Assembly (NCBI RefSeq): GCF_018390635.1 | Contig: NZ_JAHBGE010000026.1 | Location: 1 to 64,000, forward strand | Length of the DNA stretch: 64,000 nucleotides | Reading direction: 5' to 3' | Origin: Ancylobacter lacus | Lineage (GTDB): Bacteria; Pseudomonadota; Alphaproteobacteria; Rhizobiales; Xanthobacteraceae | Shown here: piece after piece, positions 29,666 through 33,656 of the stretch | Position numbering within the stretch: position 1 is the first letter of the stretch | How the letters are laid out: each line of letters starts with the position of its first letter | The notes under the pieces: generated by a model | Database searches by the model: none | What the model was told of the DNA's origin: nothing | Seen by the model: only the letters and a program-made list of their open reading frames with translations | Translations under genes and position numbers: made by a program

Positions 29666-30145
29666 TCAGAAATCGACGCGCGGGGTTTCCGGCAGCTCGA
29701 CGTCGAACAGCTCCCAGAAGACCAATCCGCGCTCGGCGGCGTACCAGACCTCGAACCGCGCCAGCGCGGCGGCGGGGTCGGGCGGCGCGGCATCGTCGGG
29801 CGGCGGGCCGGCGTCGACCCCCTCCGGCGCCGGGTGGAGCGCGGCGTGCAGCGCCGTCACCACCGGCGCGAACGCCTCCAGCACCGTCCGCCGCGCCGTG
29901 CCCGCCACATCCTCGTGCCAGCCGAGGCGGGCCCGCAGCACGGCGAGCCCGCCAGCGAGGGCGACCCCGCGTTCAGGCGCCTGCGCCGCGGCGACGATAT
30001 CGCCCATCAGGTCGAGACGGCGGAAGGCGAAGGCGCGGCTGCGTTCCAGCGCCGCGAGGCGGCTGGCCCAATCGCGCCGGAAGGCTTCTTCCTCCTGCCG
30101 GGCGGCAATGGCCGCCTGCCGCAGATCGTCCAGAAGGGCCGTCAT
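29666..30145 (-). CDS. Conserved small protein of unknown function downstream of selB
   Basis: A 159-aa soluble protein, not recognised. The N-terminal half is helical and charged (LLDDLRQAAIAARQEEEAFR, DWASRLAALERSRAFAFRRL). The C-terminal half ends ALARFEVWYAAERGLVFWEL then FDVELPETPRVDF. Its ATG overlaps the TGA of the selB frame (ATGA at 30142-30145), and GGGAGCGAGCG provides its own ribosome site. It is the last gene of the formate dehydrogenase-selenocysteine operon, so a role in formate dehydrogenase maturation or selenium use is possible, but this is only from position. Confidence 0.75.
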   Translation of the reverse strand: MTALLDDLRQAAIAARQEEEAFRRDWASRLAALERSRAFAFRRLDLMGDIVAAAQAPERGVALAGGLAVLRARLGWHEDVAGTARRTVLEAFAPVVTALHAALHPAPEGVDAGPPPDDAAPPDPAAALARFEVWYAAERGLVFWELFDVELPETPRVDF

Positions 30146-32232
30146 CGCTCGCTCCCGGAAGCTGGCGGAAGAGAGTGGGAGTCGAACCCACCAGAGACCG
30201 GCTCGCGGCCCCTCCCGGATTTGAAGTCCGGACGCCCCACCAGGGACGCTTCCCTTCCATCGGCACGGGCGGCTTCCTGTAGGGAGGGTCCGAACAGGTC
30301 CAGCCGATGCCGGTTGATGCGCCTCAGATCGCCACGGCGCAAGGTGACGCCGTGCCGATCGAGAAATTCGAGGATCTGGATCGCCACCTTGCGGCCGACC
30401 TGCGGCCGCCCCGCCTCGGCCTCGTCCCGCTCGATGCGGTCGCGAAACTGCGCGGCAGAGAATTCGCCCCGGGCGCCGGCACCGGCCAGCTCGGTGACCA
30501 TGGTGACGAGCGCGGAGACGGTGGCGCGGAGGAAGAAATGGTCGTGCGCCACCTCGTCGACCCGGCCCATGCGGGAGAGCCGCTTCATCAGCCGGCGAAT
30601 GTCCGGCTCGGCCGCACCGGTGAGGCCGGCAATATCCCGCACGCGCGGCGGCCGGTACCGCTCGATCCCCTCCATCAGGGGTCGGATCGACGACCACAGC
30701 GCCTCGTCCGCGGCCGTGAGCCGCACCTCATGGCCGGGCAGCCGCACCCACGCGCCTTCCAGCGCCACCGCATTCTCCCGCGCCAGCCGCTGCAGCAGAA
30801 CGCCGAAGGCGGGCTTGGGCAGGGATGGTGCCAGCGCGAGGCGAAGCCGCTCGGCGCCCATGCCGGGAAGATCGGGATTCTCGGCATGAAAGGCATCGAG
30901 CCGGGCGAGCAGCTCCTCCGTCAGCGCCCGGGCATGGGCCGCGTCGAGCACGACGCGGGCCTCGCCGACGGGCAGCACCCTGAGGTCGAGCTGGCGGGCG
31001 ATGGATTCGGCCGCGTCCGCCGCCAGCGCATGGTCGCGGACGAAGCCGGCGAGGTCGAGATGGAACGGCGCCACCGCCAGCAGTCCCGCCACCGCCTCCA
31101 CCGGCGCGTGGGCCAGGGCGGCGAGCTGGGCGAGGCGCCCGGGCGCGCGGCGCTTGCGCGTCGGGGGCCGCAGATCGAGCAGCCGCCCGCCGCCGACCGT
31201 CCGCCGCGCAGACGTGTCGCGCACCACGAAGCGATCCCCGGCCGCCATCGCGACCGGGCGCTCGAGGACGATCTGCACCAGACCCGTGCCGCCCGGCACC
31301 AGCGTCTCCGGTTCGAGCGGCACCAGCCGAGCCCCCACCTCGGCGGCGCCGTGGTGGAACCGGACCGGAAACCACGCGCCGATCGGCTTCGGCTCGCCCG
31401 GCAGCACGGTGAGCGTGGCGTCGACGCGCTCGGCGGGGGCGTGGAGATGCGCGGCGAGCACGACATCGCCACGGGCGATCGCCTCATGGGTCACGCCGGG
31501 ACCGGCGAGGTTCAGCGCGCAGCGCTCGCCCGCGTGACCGCGTTCGGCCGGCCGGTTCTGGGCATGGATCGAGCGCACCCGCGCCTCCAGCCCCGAGGGC
31601 GAGACGATGACACGCTCACCCACGCTCACCATGCCGGAGAGCACGGTGCCGGTGACGACCGTGCCCGCGCCCGAAAGCGTGAAGCAGCGATCCACCGCCA
31701 GCCGGAAGCCGCCGTCGACGCTGCGCGCGGCCCGCCGGCGGGCCGCCTCCACCAGCCGCGCCCGAAGCTCGGCGATGCCCTCCCCCGTGCGGGCCGAAAC
31801 CGGCAATACCGACGCGCCCGCCAGCGTCGTGCCGGCCAGCACCGCCGCGATCTCGCCGGCCACGGCTTCGCGGCGGGGAGCGTCGGCAAGGTCGGCCTTG
31901 CTCAGCGCGACAATGGCCTCCTCGACCCCGAGCAGGTCCAGCAGCGCCAGATGCTCGCAGGTCTGCGGCATCACGCCGTCGTCAGCGGCCACCACCAGCA
32001 GCGCGAGGTCGATGCCGCTCGCGCCCGCCAGCATGGTGTGGACCAGGCCTTCATGGCCGGGCACGTCGATGAAGCCGAGAATGCCGGCCTCGGTGGGCAG
32101 ATAGGCGAAGCCGAGATCGATGGAGATGCCGCGTGCCTTCTCCTCCTTCAGCCGGTCGGTGTCGACGCCGGTCAGCGCGCCCACAAGCGCGGTCTTGCCG
32201 TGATCAATGTGTCCGGCCGTGCCGATGATCAT
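30142..32232 (-). CDS. selB: Selenocysteine-specific elongation factor SelB
   Basis: A GTPase that carries Sec-tRNA to UGA codons marked by a SECIS hairpin. It has the EF-Tu-like G domain ([19 protein letters not shown] from residue 4, [24 protein letters not shown]). The domain-2/3 barrels follow. The C-terminal winged helices that bind SECIS end in [20 protein letters not shown] then [10 protein letters not shown], matching the end of known SelB proteins. The frame continues about 40 codons past this point, straight through selC, to a TGA at 30142. Total length is 696 aa, longer than the 614 of E. coli. The last residues therefore come from tRNA sequence. It overlaps the selA stop by ATGA. 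Confidence 0.95.
30163..30258 (-). tRNA. selC: tRNA-Sec (anticodon UCA)
   Basis: A 96-nt gene that folds as tRNA-Sec. The 8-bp acceptor stem is GGAAGGGA with TCTCTTCC (one G-T pair), discriminator G and encoded CCA. The anticodon arm is CGGACTTCAAATCCG with UCA (30222-30224). It has a long variable arm (GAGGGGCCGCGAGCCGGTCTC) and T arm GTGGGTTCGACTCCCAC. The length and anticodon arm match E. coli SelC closely. It lies entirely inside the 3' part of the selB reading frame on the same strand. Confidence 0.95.
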
Positions 32233-33656
32233 GCCGAGCCCCCGGCGGCGGCGAAGCCATCCAGCGCGGCGAGAAAGCCGGCTTCGTCCTCAAGGCAGCG
32301 CAGATCGAGCAGAAGCGCGTCGTCGGCGAGGCGCCCGACGATCGGCACCGCGAGCCGGCGCAGCCCGCTCGCCAGCCGGCCAAGCGCAGCCCCCGACCCC
32401 GCAGCCGGGCGGAGGGCGAGGCCCGCGCTCGGTATCTGTTCGAGCGGCAGGGCGCCGGAGCCGATCTGGCTGCAGCAGTCGACCACGGCCACCCCGTGGC
32501 CGGCCCCCAGCCGTGCCGCCACCGGCGCCGCCAGCCTGCCCGCCAAAGCGGCGATCTCGGCAGCCGGGCGGGCGAGGAGACGCAGGGTCGGCAGCCGCGC
32601 GGCGAGCCGGTCAGGATCGCGGTAAAGCCGCAGCGTCGCCTCCAGCGCGGCGAGGCGAATCTTGTCGACCCGCAGCGCGCGCTTCATCGGGTTGCGGTTG
32701 ATGGCGGCGATGAGGTCGCGGCGGCCGACGATGAAGCCGGCCTGCGGCCCGCCAAGCAGCTTGTCGCCGGAGAAGGTGACGAGGTCGGCACCTTCCGCCA
32801 CCGCCTCGCGCACGGTGGGCTCGTGCTTCAGCCCATAGCGGGCGAGGTCGGCCAGCGTGCCGGAGCCGAGGTCGTTCACCAGCGGCACCCCATGGGCCCT
32901 GGCGATGCCGGCGAGATCGCGCGCCGCCACCTCGGCGGTGAAGCCCTCGATGCGGTAATTCGAGGTGTGCACCTTCATCACCAGCCCGGTATCGGGACCG
33001 ATGGCCCCGGCATAATCCTTGGAGTGGGTGCGGTTGGTGGTGCCGACCTCCACCAGCCGGACCCCGGCCCGGGCCATGATGTCCGGCATGCGGAAGGCAC
33101 CGCCGATCTCGATCAGCTCGCCGCGCGAGACCACGGCTTCGCGGGGCGCCCCGGCGGCGGTGCGGCCCAGCGTGTTCAGCACCAGCAGCACGGCGGCGGC
33201 ATTGTTGTTGACGAGGGTGGCGTCCTCGGCCCCGGTGAGCTCACGCAAGAGGTCGCGCAGATGGTCGTCGCGCTCGCCGCGCCCGCCGCTGTCGAGATCA
33301 AACTCGAGCGCCACCGCCTGGCGCATCGCCGCCACCGCCGCCGCCACCGCCTCCTCGGCGAGGATGGCGCGGCCGAGATTGGTGTGCAGCACCGTGCCGG
33401 TGAGATTGAAGACCGGCCGCAGCGAGGCCCGCGCCGCCGCCTCCAGCGCCGCCAGCGCCACCGCCGCCACCGCCTCGGCATCCGGCACGGCCCCGCCGGC
33501 GCGCACCGCGAGACGCTGGCGCGCCAGCTCCTCGCGGATGGCGCGGGTCGCCTCGATGCGGCCGTGGCGGTCCAGCGCCAGCGCGGCGGCCGGGCTCTTC
33601 AGGACGAGATCGACCGAGGGAAGGGCGCGCAGCGCGTGGGCGGCATCCTCGTTCAT
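32229..33656 (-). CDS. selA: L-seryl-tRNA(Sec) selenium transferase SelA
   Basis: A 475-aa pyridoxal-phosphate enzyme that turns Ser-tRNA(Sec) into Sec-tRNA(Sec) using selenophosphate. Family landmarks are [20 protein letters not shown] near residue 85, [14 protein letters not shown], the [20 protein letters not shown] segment, EVGTTNRTH, and the cofactor lysine in [13 protein letters not shown] near residue 295. Length is close to the E. coli enzyme (463). It follows fdhE by 7 bp and is coupled to selB by ATGA. Confidence 0.97.

Follow-up and report, generated by a model that had tools for sequence, protein, structure and literature searches.

In the window, by which we mean the whole 64,000-nt stretch of Ancylobacter lacus DNA that was analyzed, the entire selC gene (tRNA-Sec) lies inside the open reading frame of selB, on the same strand and in frame. 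In sequence comparisons among related loci, this frame is retained through selC, codon-level selection on the encoded peptide is not visible, and nesting is associated with the gene that follows. The comparisons suggest that selection keeps the frame through selC, and real translation of the selC sequence by ribosomes is the best explanation for this. We consider it fairly likely that ribosomes read through selC, that the resulting peptide is a passenger, that coupling of the downstream gene is part of the reason for keeping the frame, and that a transcript gives either full-length SelB or the tRNA. Co-transcription, coupling, processing and this either/or outcome are what we infer from the arrangement.

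The selB-selC locus and the spread of nesting

The locus is part of a minus-strand operon in which formate dehydrogenase genes, with an in-frame TGA at 38835-38833 in the large-subunit gene, precede selA, selB, selC and a gene for a 159-aa protein (Table 1). The selB family model TIGR00475 matched the product with 397.7 bits against a cut-off of 242.25 (profile positions 1-579 of 581), and the match ends at residue 639, leaving 57 SelB residues beyond the family model. ARAGORN placed a tRNA-Sec with anticodon TCA at 30259-30163, and Rfam RF01852 matched 30258-30167 at 77.5 bits against a cut-off of 47 (model positions 1-91 of 91). The start of the tRNA coincides with the start of a selB codon, GGA. 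The 96 nt, a multiple of 3, are read in the selB frame from Gly (GGA) to Pro (CCA) as 32 residues (GREAS...SLPP; full letters not shown), followed by ASGSER. In the predicted fold of a 211-nt transcript piece around selC the cloverleaf was retained, and the overall folding of this piece was no better than that of shuffles (z −0.56).

The selB TGA (30144-30142) overlaps the ATG (30145-30143) of the 159-aa gene, and ATGA overlaps also join selA to selB and fdoH to fdoI. The preliminary description had claimed that selB runs without a stop from its family domain to a TGA at 30142, through the whole of selC, and that this TGA overlaps the next ATG as in other genes of the operon; both claims were borne out by the open reading frame, ARAGORN, RF01852 and TIGR00475 results and by the two further overlaps. 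By a rough estimate, an open stretch of about 48 codons has a chance of roughly one in three at this G+C content, and the non-randomness of the frame comes from relatives, not from the single window sequence.

Table 1. Features of the selB-selC locus in the window.
Feature	Coordinates	Strand	Basis
selA, its TGA overlapping the selB ATG	32229..33656	−	product name from sequence and operon context only, without its own family search
selB reading frame, 696 codons, ATG start, TGA stop	30142..32232	−	ORF call; TIGR00475 above its cut-off over residues 1-639
Linker, 9 codons, from the end of SelB conservation (HRLDLFGP) to selC	30259..30285	−	lengths in relatives vary almost only by multiples of 3
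selC, tRNA-Sec, 96 nt including encoded CCA, selB codons 659-690	30163..30258	−	ARAGORN, Rfam, predicted fold
Trailer, 17 nt, from selC to the next ATG, with Shine-Dalgarno-like GGGAG	30146..30162	−	trailers tested in 38 overlapping loci
ATGA, shared by the selB stop and the next gene's start	30142..30145	−	sequence; similar overlap in 48 of 65 nested loci carrying the downstream gene
Downstream gene P0001, 159 aa, all-helical, no Pfam/NCBIfam family	29666..30145	−	family searches, structure model, occurrence

Related loci were collected with a SelB query and with tRNA-Sec searches. The SelB-query sample held 80 named loci, nested in 74 of the 79 that have selC, and it favors nested loci because the query included the tail. 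In the tRNA-Sec-based samples, selC was accepted from RF01852 searches, which also match ordinary long tRNAs, at E < 1e-12 in the class sample (placed at a visible gap) and at E 1e-11 elsewhere. The class sample gave 41 selC genomes of 289, two of them nested, the window being one; the order sample gave 23 of 297, four of them nested, window included. Among 299 genomes of the phylum sample, 35 had selC; 27 loci were newly retrieved from these, 26 of them from outside the class, and none of the 27 was nested. The family sample had 64 selC genomes of 149, and 52 of these were nested, one of them on a contig that stops 5 nt past selC. In these samples, nesting predominates in the window's family and is rare elsewhere. 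Removal of duplicates by the tRNA plus 100 nt upstream left 207 distinct selC loci, 106 of them nested. One locus (L083), whose contig ends before selC, was dropped from all counts; two others (L037 and L202, with contigs ending 80 and 5 nt after selC) were kept in the tree-change count and left out of the association count, and separate loci with a stop more than 400 nt upstream of selC were left out of the tree. Three family genomes carry two selC loci each. Both are nested in G890 (L227 and L238), and in G878 (L223 and L240) and G959 (L186 and L212) one is nested while the other has a stop before selC.

Six other genomes of the window's genus were divided evenly: two nested, two interrupted by a stop inside selC and two by one ahead of it. 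None of the six has the downstream gene. Close relatives with a conserved stop between selB and selC had been named in advance as evidence against the nested reading. Stops before selC do occur in the genus, in those two genomes, but the same-genus stops share neither position nor frame, which points to repeated decay and not to a conserved stop.

Reading frame retention and the tRNA-encoded tail

The spacer from the RxGDxR motif to selC has 25 different lengths, between 30 and 141 nt, in the 106 nested loci, and is a multiple of 3 in 105 of them. Parsimony on the SelB tree assigned about 51 length changes and a single phase change (L185) to nested loci, versus 33 length changes and 20 phase changes to loci with a stop before selC, a comparison in which the nested class is partly self-selected, since it requires an open frame, and loci whose linker has shifted frame often run into a stop and so pass into the separate class. 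In the loci with a stop before selC, the spacer phases were spread 22/15/12 (n = 49). The family sample alone had phase 0 in 52 of 53 nested loci across 19 spacer lengths, and therefore the bias of the SelB query does not explain the phase constancy. Stops inside the tRNA in the other frames were also considered as a cause of the constant phase and rejected, because each of those two frames is mostly free of stops across the nested tRNAs (open in 91 and 104 of the 106 loci). In-frame stop-creating changes within the tRNA (0 of 227 changes in nested versus 14 of 434 in separate loci) were not used as evidence, because "nested" is itself defined by an open frame. The sole nested locus out of phase, L185 (genome G921), still carries the downstream gene; its frame shifts within the conserved end of SelB, some 80 nt ahead of selC, perhaps through a recent mutation or an error in sequencing.

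These counts bear directly on chance, that is, on an open frame in GC-rich DNA which is common by descent and is not translated past SelB. A single open stretch is unremarkable, and all three frames are mostly open in nested tRNAs, both of which fit chance, but the scarcity of phase changes among so many length changes in nested loci, set against their abundance in loci with a stop before selC, makes this explanation barely credible. The claim that ribosomes may really translate the tRNA sequence found support in the same comparison, as the frame is kept into and past selC and the overlap with the next start recurs at many spacings.

Selection on the peptide was assessed from the changes within the tRNA. 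Nested loci had 91/67/69 of them at the three codon positions and separate loci 166/117/151 (p = 0.51). Within nested tRNAs, the real frame was no richer in synonymous changes (65 of 227) than the other two frames (74 of 226 and 62 of 225). Amino-acid selection on the tail is thus not visible, as the codon-position pattern does not differ between the two kinds of locus. SelB was modelled with AlphaFold2 from 37 sequences (mean pLDDT 82.9), and residues 649-696, comprising the linker, the tRNA part and the trailer, came out as disordered (pLDDT < 50). In the absence of a codon-position effect, and given the disorder in the model, a functional tail was rejected as the main reason. More generally, the tail could be a working part of SelB that is kept for its amino-acid sequence, as the high conservation of the 32-residue stretch in the alignment would have it. 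That conservation is what the tRNA demands, however, and the tail in this form is absent from four of the six same-genus relatives; together with the codon-level and structural results, this makes a functional tail very improbable.

The downstream gene and its overlap with selB

Among loci with selB within 400 nt, selC was nested in 65 of 68 with the downstream gene adjacent versus 39 of 90 without it (39 of 59 among closer SelBs). On the tree, changes between the nested and not-nested states numbered one in 68 loci with the gene and 13 in 61 without. In the family, 47 genomes carry the gene: 46 are nested (G867 included), and the contig of the other ends 21 nt before selC. The 17 family selC genomes without the gene comprised six nested (G945 among them, with 80 nt of contig beyond selC), seven not nested with selB, and four with no selB found upstream, which gives an association between nesting and the gene of p 5e-6 in a Fisher test that ignores relatedness. 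The gene lies beside selC without nesting at three loci (L094, L126 and L130), and in the class and order samples only two of five loci with the gene beside selC, window included, were nested.

The gene itself was present in 47 of 149 family, 6 of 289 class and 8 of 297 order genomes, every one of which also has selC. It adjoins selC in 46 of the 47 family genomes; G867 is the exception, its match being weak (E 9e-4) and located on a different contig. In the class and order samples, it lies away from selC in 8 of 13 distinct genomes (G093, G178, G274, G280, G427, G500, G520 and G537), none of which is nested. Occurrence away from selC, yet only in genomes with selC, suggests that the 159-aa protein has a role in the Sec system or in its formate dehydrogenase itself. 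Its predicted structure was confident (pLDDT 91.9, pTM 0.78). Pfam and NCBIfam gave no match for the window's protein and only scattered matches over 57 members (best E 0.0013 and 0.0012, one member each); the best E was 0.12 against PDB sequences and 1.7 for the structure model in a Foldseek search of the PDB. From its position and distribution, the gene is probably ORF2 of Mukai 2021 (PMC8124441).

The start of the gene overlaps the selB stop in 48 of the 65 nested loci that carry it and does not overlap directly in the other 17. The distance from the tRNA end to the start is in one phase in 51 of 66 nested loci with the gene, and the 38 overlapping loci have nine tRNA-to-start spacings, from 14 to 143 nt; for these distances the starts were chosen automatically, wrongly in about ten loci, and in a further step a start was shifted to the overlapping codon if the frame agreed. 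A Shine-Dalgarno-like match is present in the last 17 nt of 29 of the 38 trailers (shuffles: mean 17.5, highest 25 in 200 rounds). With its own Shine-Dalgarno-like sequence so frequent, the downstream gene may not need coupling, and once the tRNA has been excised its message may retain a short leader carrying a ribosome site.

Phase was likewise kept at nested loci that lack the downstream gene, in 41 of 41 cases, with 19 length changes and no phase changes. Consequently, coupling cannot be the whole reason for retention, and the gene was rejected as the sole reason. We favor the view that the downstream gene helps to keep the frame, with part of the retention left without explanation in lineages lacking it. 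In 6 of 40 such nested loci the selB stop overlaps another open reading frame (at least 80 codons), four of these encoding related 126-aa proteins. This different 126-aa protein follows selC in L043, L045, L046, L097 and L121, and four of these five genes overlap the selB stop. At L121 the start that overlaps is a GTG further upstream, in a longer frame. It is perhaps ORF1 of Mukai 2021 (PMC8124441).

Alternatively, the frame could be kept for translational coupling only, and tRNA processing would have no regulatory effect on SelB, either with uncut transcripts in excess or with selC sufficiently expressed by other means. Neither the association with the downstream gene nor the locked stop/start overlap needs a processing switch. 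The in-phase nested loci that lack the gene do not fit coupling alone, and a complete tRNA within a message hardly evades tRNA-processing enzymes. We regard coupling alone as unlikely.

Transcription, processing and comparison with known systems

The 80 nt before selC were scanned for the best TTGACA-N15-19-TATAAT match, with a score of at least 9 counted as strong, although this sigma70 consensus is a weak guide in GC-rich alphaproteobacteria. Among nested or partly nested loci, 1 of 111 had a strong match (shuffles 1.4%); the figures were 6 of 53 for loci with a stop before selC (shuffles 3%) and 6 of 40 for free-standing selC genes (shuffles 6%). The mean score of nested loci was 6.70 versus 6.41 in shuffles, and mean scores were slightly above shuffles in all three groups, which makes the scan weak evidence for a selC without its own promoter. 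On the separate selC promoter that the preliminary description had raised as a counter-argument, the scan thus speaks only for consensus promoters, which occur in nested loci at about the shuffled rate. If selC had its own internal promoter in the end of selB, the overlap would be a harmless by-product of a compact operon and processing would carry little weight. A weak or non-sigma70 promoter is compatible with such scans, but strong matches are rarer in nested or partly nested loci than in the other two groups, and the frame retention would be left unexplained; an internal promoter is accordingly improbable.

The reading that we prefer, translation through selC with a passenger peptide, would work as follows. 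The genes selA, selB, selC and the downstream gene would form one transcription unit. Ribosomes finishing selB would continue through the selC sequence and halt at the ATGA, where a restart on the downstream gene would be possible. The 32 tRNA-encoded residues would be an unstructured passenger, and selection would hold the frame open and in phase, in part for the coupling of selB to the downstream gene. Where selC folds first on a transcript, processing would free tRNA-Sec and leave the selB message without a stop, so that each transcript would yield either full-length SelB or the tRNA. A trade-off between SelB and its tRNA through an RNase P cut of the selB message is plausible. If processing does choose between tRNA and protein, an elongation factor and the one tRNA it serves would be linked by a simple feedback. 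A bolder and doubtful extension is that the tRNA gene acts as an RNA switch in coding sequence, setting tRNA-Sec against full-length SelB plus a coupled, Sec-linked helper of unseen fold, a hidden part of the Sec system.

Nesting may also affect annotation. In the PLSDB gene tables of two nested plasmid records (L244 and L246), the selB CDS is not listed, in tables that omit pseudogenes and RNA genes, and the locus-tag numbers skip two between the neighbors of selB. In Roseomonas mucosa (L245), which has no selC beside selB, selB is listed in the PLSDB table. Annotation pipelines may drop selB or mark it as a pseudogene when a tRNA lies inside it. Annotators should be warned that a selB with an internal tRNA was unlisted in both annotated nested plasmid records examined.

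The nested selB-selC arrangement and the tRNA-processing model, which the preliminary description also put forward, are already known and were published by Mukai 2021 (PMC8124441). That paper described diverse Alphaproteobacteria with a complete same-strand selC nested in selB, a tRNA of 96 or 93 nt (a multiple of 3) giving an extension from Gly (GGA) to Pro (CCA), often but not always a selB stop overlapping an ORF1 or ORF2 start, and loss of nesting in some relatives. It proposed, as a hypothesis, that tRNA processing produces a nonstop selB mRNA and represses SelB, with the downstream message assumed to be leaderless. The arrangement is repeated in passages of two reviews (PMC13188914, PMC9312934). 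No experimental test of nested selB-selC was found in the literature searched, whose coverage excluded most subscription journals. The arrangement was published as a prediction only, and the present comparisons make a testable case of it: selection appears to preserve translation across a working tRNA gene, but apparently not the peptide itself, and a family-less, Sec-linked gene is tied in. Added to the earlier account are the frame-retention statistics, the codon-level test, the promoter scan, the link to the downstream gene and the structure models.

In anatomy, the window's locus does not differ from the nested loci of Mukai 2021 (PMC8124441), sharing the complete same-strand 96-nt tRNA-Sec in the selB frame, the Gly-to-Pro tail, the overlap of the stop with the next open reading frame, the same proposed processing model and the losses in some relatives. 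The mitochondrion of Armadillidium vulgare, as cited in Mukai 2021 (PMC8124441), likewise has a whole tRNA, tRNA-Lys, in direct orientation inside a protein frame, cox1, although that is a compact mitochondrial genome and the present case lies in a 4.6-Mb bacterial genome. In Shewanella and Ferrimonas, according to Mukai 2021 (PMC8124441), the selB open reading frame also spans the selC sequence, but there selC is on the opposite strand.
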